Assembly: GCA_018667995.1 (NCBI GenBank)
Contig: JABIQT010000029.1
Span: 1 to 6,502 of the forward strand
Direction: 5' to 3'
Length of the DNA: 6,502 bases
From: Candidatus Latescibacterota bacterium
GTDB lineage: Bacteria > JAAXHH01 > JABIQT01
In this document: positions 2,711 through 6,502 of the stretch, piece by piece
Layout: every line of letters begins with the position of its first letter
Numbering within the stretch: position 1 is the first letter of the stretch
Program-made: the position numbers and the translations under genes
Notes under the pieces: model-generated
Database searches by the model: none
What the model was told of the DNA's origin: nothing
The model's input: the letters and a program-made list of their open reading frames with translations, nothing else

Positions 2711-3895
2711 ATGTTCTCCAAGAAAGAAGCTTTTGATGTGGTTGTAGTGGGCGCAGGTCCAGGCGGATCAATGGCCGCTTGGGCGGCTGCCGAGCGCGGT
2801 CTTGACGTTCTGATGATCGAGAAGGACCGCGAAATCGGTGTTCCTGTCAGATGTGCGGAGGGAGTAGGAGCCGATGTGATTCAAAGATTCATCGATCCAG
2901 ATCCTCACTGGATCTCCAGCGAGATACAGGGAGTTCGGATCTACGCGCCGTCAGGAGATAGTGTGGCGTTCACGGAGGAGGGTATGGGATACGTGCTTGA
3001 GCGACGGGTTTTTGACCGGGCCCTGGCGAACAGGGCCGGCCAGGCCGGCACAGAGGTGCGCGTGAGTACGTGCGCCACCGGACTCGAATTCAACGAGGAT
3101 CGCCCCTGCGGAGTCAAGATCCTGACACGCGGAACCGAAAGCACCGTGCGCTGCAAGGTCGTGATTGCGGCAGACGGAGTTGAGTCACGCGTCGCCCGCT
3201 GGGCGGGCATCAAAACGATGATTGCGTTGAGGGATCTCGAGGTCACGTCTCAGTATCTTCTGGATAATGTGACCACTGACAAGGGATATTGTGAGTTCTT
3301 TGTCGGTGCGGACGTGGCACCCGGCGGTTATGCCTGGGTATTTCCGAAAACCGATAAAACTGGGAATGTTGGAATCGGTGTCTGTGGCAGATACACCAGA
3401 AAGCGATCCTCAACCGACTACCTGCATTCCTTCATCGAGGGTCGATTCCCTGAAAGCACCCCGCTTGCCATGGTCGTGGGCAGCGTCCCGGTTGCGGCCA
3501 CGCTGGATGACATCGTTGGCGACGCCATCATGGTTGTGGGCGATGCCGCGCATCAGGTGAATCCTGTAAGCGGAGGCGGTATCGGAACCGCGATGATCGC
3601 TGGCGAAATCGCCGGACGGGTCTGCGCTGAGGCCATACGAGACGGCGATGTGTCACGTGATAGACTTCACCGGTATCGGAAAGAGTGGGATCAGACATAC
3701 GGTAATCACCAGAAACGCGTCTACAAAGTCAAAGAAGCCATCCAAAAACTAAAGGACGAAACCTACAATGCTTCGGCCGCAAAACTCATGAATAAAGCAA
3801 GTCCCACGTTGCGCGATATGTTTATGACTGTGCTCCGCCACCAGCCTGGTATCATATTCGACGTGGTCAAAATGTTCGCCTTCATGAAGAAGTAA
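2711..3895 (+). CDS. Geranylgeranyl reductase-family flavoprotein (digeranylgeranylglycerophospholipid reductase-like)
   Basis: The 394-residue protein is an FAD-dependent oxidoreductase of the geranylgeranyl reductase family, which saturates the double bonds of isoprenoid chains. An N-terminal dinucleotide fold starts at residue 9 with GAGPGG (14-19) and an acidic strand end (MIEKD, 35-39). PVRCAEG (45-51) has the Cys found near the substrate in archaeal enzymes. ADG lies at 154-156. PGGYAWVFP (204-212) matches the PxxYxWxFP motif of these reductases. The second FAD motif GDAAH (277-281) is followed by SGGGIGTAM. The basic C-terminal tail is also typical. The length is normal for archaeal-type members. 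An AAAGGA at 2692-2697 precedes the ATG by 13 nt, rather far, but an in-frame stop just upstream leaves no other start. The next gene, 9 nt downstream, is a UbiA prenyltransferase, which supports a membrane ether-lipid role. Alternatives are reduction of a quinone side chain or a polyprenol. The family is certain; the substrate is inferred. Confidence 0.9.
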   Translation: MFSKKEAFDVVVVGAGPGGSMAAWAAAERGLDVLMIEKDREIGVPVRCAEGVGADVIQRFIDPDPHWISSEIQGVRIYAPSGDSVAFTEEGMGYVLERRVFDRALANRAGQAGTEVRVSTCATGLEFNEDRPCGVKILTRGTESTVRCKVVIAADGVESRVARWAGIKTMIALRDLEVTSQYLLDNVTTDKGYCEFFVGADVAPGGYAWVFPKTDKTGNVGIGVCGRYTRKRSSTDYLHSFIEGRFPESTPLAMVVGSVPVAATLDDIVGDAIMVVGDAAHQVNPVSGGGIGTAMIAGEIAGRVCAEAIRDGDVSRDRLHRYRKEWDQTYGNHQKRVYKVKEAIQKLKDETYNASAAKLMNKASPTLRDMFMTVLRHQPGIIFDVVKMFAFMKK

Positions 3896-3904
3896 AATTG
3901 CAAA

Positions 3905-4717
3905 ATGCTTACCATAATCCGCCCGTTGAACTGCTTCATAGCCGCTCTATCCGTGATGGTCGGTGTCCACGTCGCCAACGGCTCGCCTGTCTCATACGCG
4001 ATCCTATTGGCCATATTGGCGGGCTGGAGCTTGTGCGCCGGAGCGAACACACACAACGATATTTGCGATCTGGATATTGATCGTGTTAATAGACCCGACA
4101 GGCCTCTTCCGGCTGGGAAAATCTCCGTACGCTTTGCGGCATGGTATGCCGGAGTGTGGTATGCAGTAGGACTGCTGTCGGCTGGATTCTTATCCCTCTC
4201 CCACACCGTCGTAGCAGTTGGGATGGTGATAATGACGATCATCTACAATAAGTATCTTAAGAGAAGACTACTATTGGGCAACCTTCTGGTGGGAGGTGTT
4301 TCGTCGCTGGCCTTCGTAATCGGGGGACTGTTGGGTGACGATGTGCTAATCACAGTGGTTCCTGTTGGATTTGCGATTCTTTTTCATTTTGGACGGGAAG
4401 TGCTTAAGGATCTGGCGGACGTTGTGGGTGATCGGGAGGGCGGTGTTGACTCGGCGCCTATGAGATACGGAGAGTCCGGAGCCAGATGGATTGTCACGTT
4501 CACATTTGCTGTTCTCATCGGAACCACAATTTGGCCATACACAGCGGGTTGGTTTGGTGTGAACTATCTGATGGTTGTCACGGTGGTCGACGCCATACTC
4601 ATATGTGTCTTATGGTCCCTATGGCTGGATTGCGGCCCTGGAAATGCGGCCCGTTTGAGCAGCATTCTCAAGGCTGACATGGTGATTGGCATTTGTGCAA
4701 TTGTAGTGGGGAGGTAA
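3905..4717 (+). CDS. UbiA-family prenyltransferase, digeranylgeranylglyceryl-phosphate synthase-like
   Basis: This 270-residue integral membrane protein belongs to the UbiA superfamily, which transfers a prenyl chain from a prenyl diphosphate to an acceptor. The first Asp-rich motif is NDICDLDID (51-59, NDxxDxxxD), followed by RPDRPLPAG (63-71), the common NRPxRPLPxG signature. The second Asp motif is D169-xx-D172-xxx-D176 within [13 protein letters not shown]. These acidic residues bind Mg2+ and the diphosphate. About nine hydrophobic segments are visible, the usual number. '[17 protein letters not shown]' resembles geranylgeranylglyceryl-phosphate geranylgeranyltransferases, which make the second ether bond of archaeal lipids. 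The geranylgeranyl reductase immediately upstream (9-nt gap) supports that reading. No good Shine-Dalgarno precedes the ATG, so translation may be coupled to the upstream gene. Quinone or other aromatic acceptors remain possible. The superfamily is certain; the specific acceptor is moderately supported. Confidence 0.87.
4708..4714 (+). promoter_or_regulatory. Strong Shine-Dalgarno that fixes a TTG start for dtd
   Basis: GGGGAGG sits inside the last codons of the UbiA gene, 7 nt before the TTG at 4722-4724. It is the best ribosome site in the window. It supports a TTG start rather than a later ATG, and the resulting protein begins exactly at the conserved first strand of the DTD family (MRVVLQR). 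Confidence 0.8.
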
Positions 4718-4721
4718 AGAC

Positions 4722-5162
4722 TTGCGAGTCGTGTTGCAGCGCTCTCGTCTGGCGCGCGTGGAGGTTGAAGGCGAGATGATCGGAGAGATTGAGGCGGGCC
4801 TCGTGTTGCTCATAGGCGTAGCCAAGGAAGATACGGTGCAAGACGCACAGTACGTGATGGAAAAATGTGTGAACTTGAGGGTGTTTGAGGATGAGGCTGG
4901 AAAGATGAATCGTTCTCTACTCGAAACTGGTGGACAAGTATTGGCTATTTCTCAATTTACGCTATACGGCGACACTCGAAAGGGGCGCAGGCCGGGTTTC
5001 GATCAAGCAGCCAGACCTGACGTCGCAGAGCCCATATACGAGGCCTCGTTGGCTCATCTTGCCAGTCTCGGAGTACGTGTCGAGACCGGCCGATTCGGCG
5101 CCCATATGTGCGTCTCGCTCGAGAATGACGGTCCGGTAACATTAATATTAGAGAGCAAATGA
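4722..5162 (+). CDS. dtd: D-aminoacyl-tRNA deacylase
   Basis: The 146-residue cytoplasmic protein is a bacterial DTD, which hydrolyses D-amino acids (and mischarged glycine) from tRNA and so keeps them out of protein. The start MRVVLQRS is the family's first strand. [17 protein letters not shown] (77-93) contains the conserved SQFTL with Thr80. NDGPVT (135-140) carries the Gly137-Pro138 pair that forms the cis-Pro chirality filter. The length equals the usual size of about 145 residues. Translation starts at TTG (4722), preceded by a very strong Shine-Dalgarno within the end of the UbiA gene, with 4 nt between the two genes. Its stop codon overlaps the maf start (ATGA). There is nothing degenerate in the sequence. 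The enzyme is bacterial/eukaryotic in type (archaea use an unrelated DTD2), which helps place the host among Bacteria. Confidence 0.96.
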
Positions 5163-5752
5163 ATTACTCCGTTACTACCCCAATTATCTTAGCCTCAGCT
5201 TCACCGAGACGTTCCTCCCTGCTGGCACAGGTAGGCATCCCTTTTGAGGTCGAGGTTTCAGGCGTGCCCGAGGACTCTTCAGATGATCTGTCGCCTTCCG
5301 AGCTCGCGAGATCGCTTGCCCTGTCAAAGGCAAATGCCGTGGCGAGCCGTCAGGAAGAGTCGGGCCGAATCGTCCTGGGAGCTGATTCCATCGTCGTCGT
5401 TGACGGCATTGTGTTTGGAAAGCCGAGGAGTCGATCCGACGCCCGGCACATGCTGGAAACAATTCTTGGACGCAAGCATCAAGTTATCACGGGAATCGCG
5501 CTGGTAGAATCAGGTACCGGGCGCCAGTATGAATCTCATGAAGAAACCGAGGTCACCATGAGGGCTGCCACCGAAGATGAAATCAGGCAGTATCTGGCTA
5601 CCGGCGAATCAATGGACAAGGCTGGAGCCTATGGCGCTCAGGGCTTCGGAGCAGGATTCATTGAGCGTGTTAACGGATGTTTCTACAATGTGGTTGGGCT
5701 GCCACTCTCCCTCGTTACTACTTCTCTCAGGACCTTTATGGGCGCCAGCTGA
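5159..5752 (+). CDS. maf: Maf-family nucleoside triphosphate pyrophosphatase (YhdE-like, dTTP/UTP type)
   Basis: The 197-residue cytoplasmic enzyme belongs to the Maf/HAM1-like house-cleaning pyrophosphatases, which hydrolyse nucleoside triphosphates to monophosphates and pyrophosphate. Visible motifs are LASASPRR (11-18, phosphate-binding loop), GADSIV (74-79) with the catalytic-base candidate Asp76, GKP (87-89), HQVITG (107-112), [10 protein letters not shown] (153-162) and [10 protein letters not shown] (173-182). SPRR (not SPWR) and the Gln in GAYGAQG point to the YhdE-like branch that prefers dTTP, UTP and modified pyrimidines over the m7GTP-type YceF branch. The length is normal. The start codon overlaps the dtd stop by 4 nt (ATGA), so translation is probably coupled. 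Adjacency of Maf to UbiA-type prenyltransferases also occurs, from memory, in Bacteroidetes genomes, but I could not check this here. The family call is confident; subfamily specificity rests on motifs. Confidence 0.94.
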
Positions 5753-5783: not shown

Positions 5784-6502
5784 ATGCTGACCTACATTTC
5801 CGATAGATTGCTTCATCCCGTTTCGGTTTTCGCAGTGTTCTATATCGCTCTGTTATTTCTGTGCTATGACGCGATACATTTTCCTCCGTACTGGGATAGT
5901 GTACTCGGCCTCTTTGCGGAGGCAACATGGCTGGCAGACCACGATTTCGACTATATGGCACTGGCCTATGAGCAATCTGGCTATGTAGCGGGCGGACCGA
6001 GAGTATACTTCTTCTCAATATATCCTTCCCTGCAGGCATTGCTGATGATCGGTTTCGGTAATGCCTCGCGCTTTTTGCTCTTCAACCACTTGCTGACATT
6101 TGGCTACGCAGCTGCCACTCTCGCGGCGTTCTATTACCTGCTGCGCGTGCGCGTGGGTACGGCGTTGGCTCTATTGGGTGCCATCGCACTGATGGTTCAT
6201 CCTCTCTTCAGGGCTCAGGCAGAGGCCATAAACATGGAGATGCCACTGCTGGCCGCTACATCGATCGGCATATTGTTGACGATAAGAGGGCACCATCTCT
6301 GGGGTGCGGTCTTTGCCGTTGCTGCGATGGCAGTAAAACCCTTCGGGATTATAGGGGTGGTGGCTCTGCTTATCTATCATCTGGTGGATCGTGAGCAAGG
6401 GTTGAGGCGGGATCGAGCTGCGTTGAGTCTTCTCGGACTAGCGATTCTATCAGCTCCTGCCCAGTTGTGGTTGCGATCGACCTTTCTGGAGGATTCCAGC
6501 GA
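5784..6502 (+). CDS. Polytopic membrane protein, probable GT-C (PMT/ArnT-like) glycosyltransferase, N-terminal part
   Basis: The frame is open from the ATG at 5784 to the window edge (239 codons). A short cytoplasmic N-terminus leads to a hydrophobic segment (about 12-30), then an extracytoplasmic loop beginning PPYWDSVLG with Asp38. GT-C glycosyltransferases carry their catalytic acidic residue in exactly this position after the first membrane segment. Further hydrophobic segments follow near 76-92, 98-120, 124-141, 154-167, 172-199 and 212-230. 'INMEMPLL' (149-156) resembles the D/E-x-P-L stretch of GT39/ArnT-type proteins. Such enzymes take a sugar from a polyprenyl-phosphate donor and add it to a lipid, glycan or protein at the outer face of the membrane. 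An in-frame TGA at 5766-5768 leaves no earlier start. No Shine-Dalgarno is visible. It lies 31 nt after maf and is probably in the same operon. The donor and acceptor are unknown. The GT-C assignment is likely, from topology and the loop motif rather than a full-length match. Confidence 0.72.
   Translation, partial: MLTYISDRLLHPVSVFAVFYIALLFLCYDAIHFPPYWDSVLGLFAEATWLADHDFDYMALAYEQSGYVAGGPRVYFFSIYPSLQALLMIGFGNASRFLLFNHLLTFGYAAATLAAFYYLLRVRVGTALALLGAIALMVHPLFRAQAEAINMEMPLLAATSIGILLTIRGHHLWGAVFAVAAMAVKPFGIIGVVALLIYHLVDREQGLRRDRAALSLLGLAILSAPAQLWLRSTFLEDSS

Follow-up and report, generated by a model that had tools for sequence, protein, structure and literature searches.

The window, that is, the whole stretch of 6,502 nt of DNA analysed here, carries a gene pair that, as judged from sequence, probably accounts for two steps of an archaeal-type diether lipid pathway in an FCB-type bacterium: formation of the second ether bond and saturation of the chains. 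The pair consists of a gene for a geranylgeranyl reductase (GGR)-type flavoprotein and a gene for a UbiA-superfamily membrane protein, the predicted DGGGP synthase (DGGGPS). The genes, their families, the conserved catalytic residues, the gene order and the joint presence or absence of the genes in the phylum were observed directly. The initial annotation, made from the letters of the window, had described a GGR-like gene with the motifs PGGYAWVFP and GDAAH 9 nt upstream of a UbiA gene with both Asp-rich motifs, followed by the bacterial genes dtd and maf. The reading frames agree exactly with this description and all motifs were found at their places (Table 1). The suggestion that the organism may make isoprenoid ether lipids or a mixed membrane is supported at the gene level, as a potential. 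A small bacterial phylum thereby joins, at that level, those with the capacity for archaeal-type lipids. Elsewhere in the window, positions 982-2385 hold a fusion of NadD (nicotinate-nucleotide adenylyltransferase) and NAD kinase in one ORF of 467 aa.

Table 1. Coordinates of the features in the window and in related loci.
Feature	Locus	Position	Strand	Remarks
GGR, digeranylgeranylglycerophospholipid reductase type	window	2711..3895	+	ORF of 394 aa
TGT codon of GGR Cys48, in PVRCAEG	window	2852..2854	+	position of S. acidocaldarius Cys47
PGGYAWVFP, the PxxYxWxFP motif of the GGR cavity	window	3320..3346	+	from residue 204
GDAAH, FAD-binding motif of GGR	window	3539..3553	+	from residue 277
UbiA-superfamily membrane protein, predicted DGGGP synthase	window	3905..4717	+	ORF of 270 aa
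First Asp-rich motif of UbiA, N48-R60	window	4046..4084	+	N51, D55, D59 = MjDGGGPS N62, D66, D70
Second Asp-rich motif of UbiA, G163-D176	window	4391..4432	+	D169, D172, D176 = MjDGGGPS D180, D183, D187
dtd, D-aminoacyl-tRNA deacylase	window	4722..5162	+	bacterial neighbour; PF02580 2.1e-55
maf, nucleotide pyrophosphatase	window	5159..5752	+	bacterial neighbour; PF02545 3.2e-59
Second UbiA protein	L007	1360..2301	-	beside purF, near accD
Second UbiA protein, Poribacteria	L064	3917..4897		directly before DGGGPS
GGR gene with in-frame TGA, Poribacteria	L064	6777..8009		TGA at 6951
GGR gene with in-frame TGA, Poribacteria	L071	6042..7274		TGA at 6216
GGR gene with in-frame TGA, Poribacteria	L077	6244..7461		TGA at 6403
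DGGGPS and GGGPS close together, Poribacteria	L064, L071, L073, L075, L077, L078, L080, L084, L098, L103, L126

The UbiA protein matches the Pfam family PF01040 (1.2e-36), and its two best NCBIfam profiles are PRK12884 (prenyltransferase, 195.1 bits) and PRK12882 (geranylgeranylglycerol-phosphate geranylgeranyltransferase, 185.6 bits). Other UbiA-family profiles score 78 bits (ChlG), 34 bits (UbiA) and 30 bits (MqnP), with 30-51 bits for the quinone enzymes overall. Both best scores lie below the respective equivalog cut-offs (269 and 296 bits), which are classifier thresholds and not biochemical features; the assignment as a DGGGP synthase thus rests on evidence other than these cut-offs, although the DGGGPS profiles outscore those of every other family. 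The closest PDB entry is 6m31, the DGGGP synthase of M. jannaschii (MjDGGGPS; E 1.5e-38, 30% identity). The AlphaFold model of the protein (pLDDT 95.4) compares best with the same structure (Z 31.9), followed by the UbiA proteins of Aeropyrum (26.9) and Archaeoglobus (23.4). The residues reported as functionally important in MjDGGGPS, N62, D66, D70, Y125, K130, D180, D183 and D187 (PMC9385802), correspond to N51, D55, D59, Y114, K119, D169, D172 and D176 of the window protein, which accordingly shows the complete pattern D66-x3-D70, Y125-x4-K130, D180/D183/D187 and N62 (MjDGGGPS numbering). Across 35 aligned relatives N51, D59, Y114, D169, D172 and D176 are invariant, and D55 and K119 are conserved at 90% at least. 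In a maximum likelihood tree of 62 rows from a quick search, with many open forks, weak deep forks and few non-DGGGPS outgroups, the four UbiA proteins of the phylum fall among the DGGGP synthases of FCB bacteria, near Latescibacterota and Zixiibacteriota and separate from the archaeal clade; an exact sister group is not claimed because the deep forks are weak. A tree of 92 rows with CtaB and MqnP outgroups was set aside, as its long branches were scattered. A grouping with MenA-, UbiA- or HPT-type enzymes, which the initial annotation had named as evidence to the contrary, was not found. Best profile and PDB matches, residues, predicted fold and tree all mark the window protein as a predicted DGGGP synthase.

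The GGR protein matches PF22578 (GGR_cat, 3.4e-24) and TIGR02032 (228.6 bits, cut-off 158.8). Among the NCBIfam profiles, NF041160 scores 263.7 bits versus 87.7 bits for ChlP and 71.1 bits for MenJ; this is below the equivalog cut-off of 780 bits for DGGGPL reductases, yet the DGGGPL reductases score best. The closest PDB entry is 3oz2, a digeranylgeranylglycerophospholipid reductase (E 9.4e-70, aligned over residues 6-354). The features of the geranylgeranyl reductase family are all present: TIGR02032 and PF22578 over their cut-offs, the FAD motif, the motif PxxYxWxFP named for GGR in PMC10821996, and the equivalent of Cys47. The latter cysteine is conserved throughout the archaeal GGRs and is essential for catalysis in S. 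acidocaldarius (PMC10821996). The linkage of the gene to that for DGGGPS supports a predicted action of the reductase on DGGGP lipids. Of the four genomes in the phylum that carry the archaeal-type genes, three also encode a second GGR-family protein (L149, on contig C987 of the window's genome, L148 and L150). Its gene lies beside tetrapyrrole-like genes, which are hemL-like in L149 and resemble uroporphyrinogen III synthase in L148 and L150.

The genome to which the window belongs (G000) is a 6.06-Mb MAG of 1165 contigs, 85% complete and with 4.2% contamination. GGGP synthase (GGGPS), which the initial annotation had noted as missing from the window, is encoded once elsewhere in this genome, on contig C475 directly behind a bacterial alaS (E 2.3e-48). 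It exceeds the equivalog cut-off of TIGR01769 (223.1 versus 161.55 bits) and aligns with the Tyr/Tyr/Glu triad (Y128, Y172, E174) and with the Thr of group II in place of Asn (T226). Among group II structures it matches Methanothermobacter 4MM1 (E 5.5e-58) and Flavobacterium johnsoniae 4JEJ (E 3.2e-54). Two polyprenyl synthases are present, and the copy on contig C480 carries FHTWTMVHDDIMD; an aromatic residue five positions before DDxxD, without an insertion, is the signature of archaeal type-I GGPPS. The lack of both a GGGP synthase and a GGPP synthase was to speak against the pathway; the genome has a GGGP synthase and a GGPPS-like polyprenyl synthase.

Other lipid genes had been listed for a check, with a mixed outcome: GGGPS and a PF01553 acyltransferase were found, but G1P dehydrogenase and PlsY were not. 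No true G1P dehydrogenase (EgsA/AraM) was found in the 85%-complete G000. The four Fe-ADH_2 matches were rejected as an AroKB fusion or generic Fe-alcohol dehydrogenases, with 25 bits or no match versus the G1P dehydrogenase cut-off of 413, and the scores are equally low in the other carrier genomes. Since no such enzyme was found, the backbone may have the stereochemistry of either G1P or G3P. An apparent fusion of shikimate kinase and 3-dehydroquinate synthase (AroK-AroB) was seen in the phylum at L004, L033 and L043. A search of G000 for the CDP-archaeol synthase CarS (PF01864) found nothing, although the same search scored above the cut-off in five control genomes. The PF01553 acyltransferase is encoded in all 16 genomes of the phylum collection, and the carriers therefore probably also make ester lipids. 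PlsY (PF02660) is found in 0/16, including the 12 genomes without archaeal-type genes; these 12, all of genus g3, have a single PF01553 acyltransferase each. The combination taken as indicative of a mixed membrane in FCB bacteria is present: GGGPS, DGGGPS and GGR alongside retained genes for acyl lipids.

Quinone and chlorophyll enzymes also belong to the UbiA and GGR families, and the genome encodes a second member of each. The window UbiA might instead prenylate a quinone or another aromatic acceptor, whose tail the GGR would saturate in the manner of MenJ or ChlP, and no glycerol ether would be formed. This is improbable. DGGGPS profiles and 6m31 outscore every quinone or chlorophyll match, and GGGPS, the maker of the DGGGPS substrate, co-occurs exactly with DGGGPS and is clustered with it in Poribacteria. 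A separate MqnP-type UbiA lies with ubiE and ubiX in an mqnP-ubiE-ubiX cluster on contig C526, so that the window UbiA is not needed for quinones, and its candidacy as a quinone enzyme was rejected.

The phylum collection comprises five genera. Four of them, in three families, are represented by G000, G001, G014 and G015, each of which has GGGPS, DGGGPS and GGR_cat; all three are absent from the 12 genomes of g3, eleven of which are at least 90% complete. The joint absence may be one loss event and counts once, not twelve. The UbiA matches in the 12 g3 genomes are short and weak, and one of them, L013, resembles by sequence haem O synthase (CtaB) and not DGGGPS; among the weak PcrB matches in this genus, L029 is by sequence tryptophan synthase alpha. 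The contrast between the four genera that carry the set and the sister genus that lacks all of it offers a natural comparison for what the lipids do.

All four carriers share the order GGR-UbiA-dtd-maf (relatives at L010, L011 and L012) and also the order alaS-GGGPS (4/4). The DGGGPS proteins of the three other carriers are only 42-45% identical to the window UbiA, and preservation of the order at this distance argues that the pairing is not due to chance. At one position of the G001 GGR gene (L012 / L144) an in-frame TAG replaces the Glu codon of its relatives (RDL-E-VTTQYL), through either a nonsense mutation or an error in the assembly. That the genes are archaeal contaminants, conceivable in a fragmented MAG with the contamination value given above, is scarcely credible, for they have bacterial dtd, maf and alaS as neighbours, four genomes of the phylum share this arrangement, and the UbiA protein groups with FCB bacteria and not with archaea; contamination was rejected on the gene order and the bacterial neighbours common to the four genomes.

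A second, very divergent UbiA protein (best profile match only 61 bits) is present in the four carriers (L007, L174, L175 and L176) and in 0/12 of the g3 genomes. In three Poribacteria (L064, L077 and L126) it directly precedes DGGGPS. As it accompanies the pathway in both phyla, this protein may be a further, unrecognised component; the link to the ether-lipid pathway is suggestive only, because the absence from g3 counts as one event. The copy in G014 contains one in-frame TAA.

In the scan of named genomes an alignment query found relatives of DGGGPS, whereas a single-protein query gave none. The relatives come from KSB1, Latescibacterota, Zixiibacteriota, Poribacteria, Ignavibacteriota, Neomarinimicrobiota and others, as well as from archaea. 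The order UbiA-dtd-maf recurs in KSB1 and one further bacterium (L052, L062 and L113). GGGPS lies no more than about 3 kb downstream of DGGGPS in 11 of the 12 Poribacteria loci (Table 1). Co-localisation of the two genes within bacteria has seemed restricted to Cloacimonetes (Villanueva et al., PMC7852524), and the Poribacteria loci extend it beyond that group. In L064, L071 and L077 the order is DGGGPS-ferredoxin-GGR-GGGPS with a two-cluster ferredoxin, and in two Melioribacteraceae (L060 and L090) ferredoxin and GGR adjoin DGGGPS on the opposite strand. By analogy, such a neighbourhood would fit a reductive saturation step, since the GGR of M. acetivorans works better with the neighbouring ferredoxin (PMC9385802).

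The GGR genes of L064 (JADFGN01), L071 (chromosome OY282444.1) and L077 (JASMLX01) are each interrupted by an in-frame TGA, at the same codon in all three. This codon takes the place of the cysteine of EIGxPVRC-AEG, the window Cys48 (TGT there) and archaeal Cys47. It is likely, as read from the nucleotide sequences, that the archaeal-type lipid cluster of some Poribacteria contains a GGR with selenocysteine at the catalytic cysteine. The 40 codons before the TGA show 18-22 synonymous versus 2-8 non-synonymous changes, and the 150 codons after it 63-73 versus 26-38; with this synonymous excess before and after, the codons on both sides are under purifying selection in one frame. A hairpin of 6 bp begins 13 nt after the UGA (GCACAG-AGGCU-CUGUGC or GUGCAG-AGGCA-CUGCAC), and its loop lies some 19 nt beyond the UGA. 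In two of the six pairs both bases change; with three sequences only, 57 of 500 shuffles reach the score. Folding z-scores range from -1.5 to -2.7 in the three Poribacteria genes versus +0.1 in the window gene with Cys. The SECIS-like hairpin is a candidate element that is supportive, not conclusive. No tRNA gene was found within the 10-kb Poribacteria loci. Reassignment of UGA was rejected, as the genes of L064, GGR included, end in TGA and thus use the standard code. A sequencing error is unlikely because the UGA stands at the same codon in three assemblies.

Full-text searches gave no paper on a seleno-GGR, and geranyl or prenyl enzymes go unmentioned in a 2026 review of prokaryotic selenoproteins. 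Neither the Poribacteria cluster nor the probable selenocysteine GGR nor the second UbiA was found described in the literature searched. If the selenocysteine reading is true, it would add a selenoprotein family absent from the list of that review and would for the first time connect selenium with the saturation of ether lipids. The exchange of Cys for UGA in three Poribacteria independently marks Cys48 of GGR as a redox-active residue.

The following course is proposed for the pathway, including its substrates, chain length and direction, the addition of head groups and a place for the product in the membrane. The polyprenyl synthase on C480 would make GGPP, from which the GGGP synthase on C475 would link one geranylgeranyl chain to glycerol phosphate. 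The window UbiA protein would attach the second chain to yield DGGGP, and the window GGR, a flavoenzyme needing an electron donor, would reduce the double bonds to give a saturated diether. The head group may be added by bacterial CDP-alcohol enzymes, which are proposed because no CarS was found. E. coli enzymes convert DGGGP to archaetidylglycerol (PMC7852524), which weighs against a product outside the bulk lipids, such as a minor, dephosphorylated or signalling isoprenoid ether. Such a product would agree with the missing CarS and has a parallel in the heptaprenylglycerol-type ether of Bacillus (PMC6431249, PMC9179154); the Bacillus compound, however, has one chain and is made without a DGGGPS or GGR step, both of which are encoded and linked here, and a non-bulk product is considered unlikely. 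Still less probable, indeed very doubtful, is that the enzymes run in reverse and degrade archaeal lipids scavenged from neighbours, as catabolism was proposed for FCB lineages without G1P dehydrogenase (PMC6431249), for a chain-saturating reductase fits synthesis and not breakdown, and the homologues from Cloacimonetes act in synthesis both in vitro and in E. coli (PMC7852524). Synthesis of a saturated diether is the preferred reading.

Compared with known systems, the window UbiA protein shares the fold and the catalytic residues of the M. jannaschii DGGGP synthase (PDB 6M31, 7BPU), but belongs to a bacterial FCB clade. The window GGR has the conserved PVRC cysteine in common with the Thermoplasma-type reductase (3OZ2, NF041160), of which it is an outlying member under the NCBIfam equivalog cut-offs. 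The GGGP synthase has the triad and the Thr of the group II enzymes 4MM1 and 4JEJ and differs from them in being encoded directly behind a bacterial alaS.

In content the pathway resembles that of Cloacimonetes (Villanueva et al. 2020, PMC7852524), with GGGPS, DGGGPS, GGR and two polyprenyl synthases, and with neither CarS nor EgsA/AraM. The Cloacimonetes GGGPS and DGGGPS yielded archaeal lipids in E. coli; the gaps at G1P dehydrogenase and CarS were reported there too, and bacterial CdsA and an unknown source of G1P were invoked (PMC7852524). GGGPS adjoins DGGGPS in Cloacimonetes, whereas the genome of the window has GGR beside DGGGPS and GGGPS apart behind alaS, and the second UbiA protein co-occurs in its phylum. 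Gene neighbours are thereby added to the pathway: DGGGPS lies next to ferredoxin and GGR in two other bacterial groups and next to GGGPS in Poribacteria, and the second UbiA is a further addition. The occurrence of such genes in the FCB group, to which the initial annotation had referred, was described in 2019-2020 (PMC6431249, PMC7852524), GGGPS and DGGGPS being stated for other FCB and related phyla as well (PMC7852524), and the window adds a new member.
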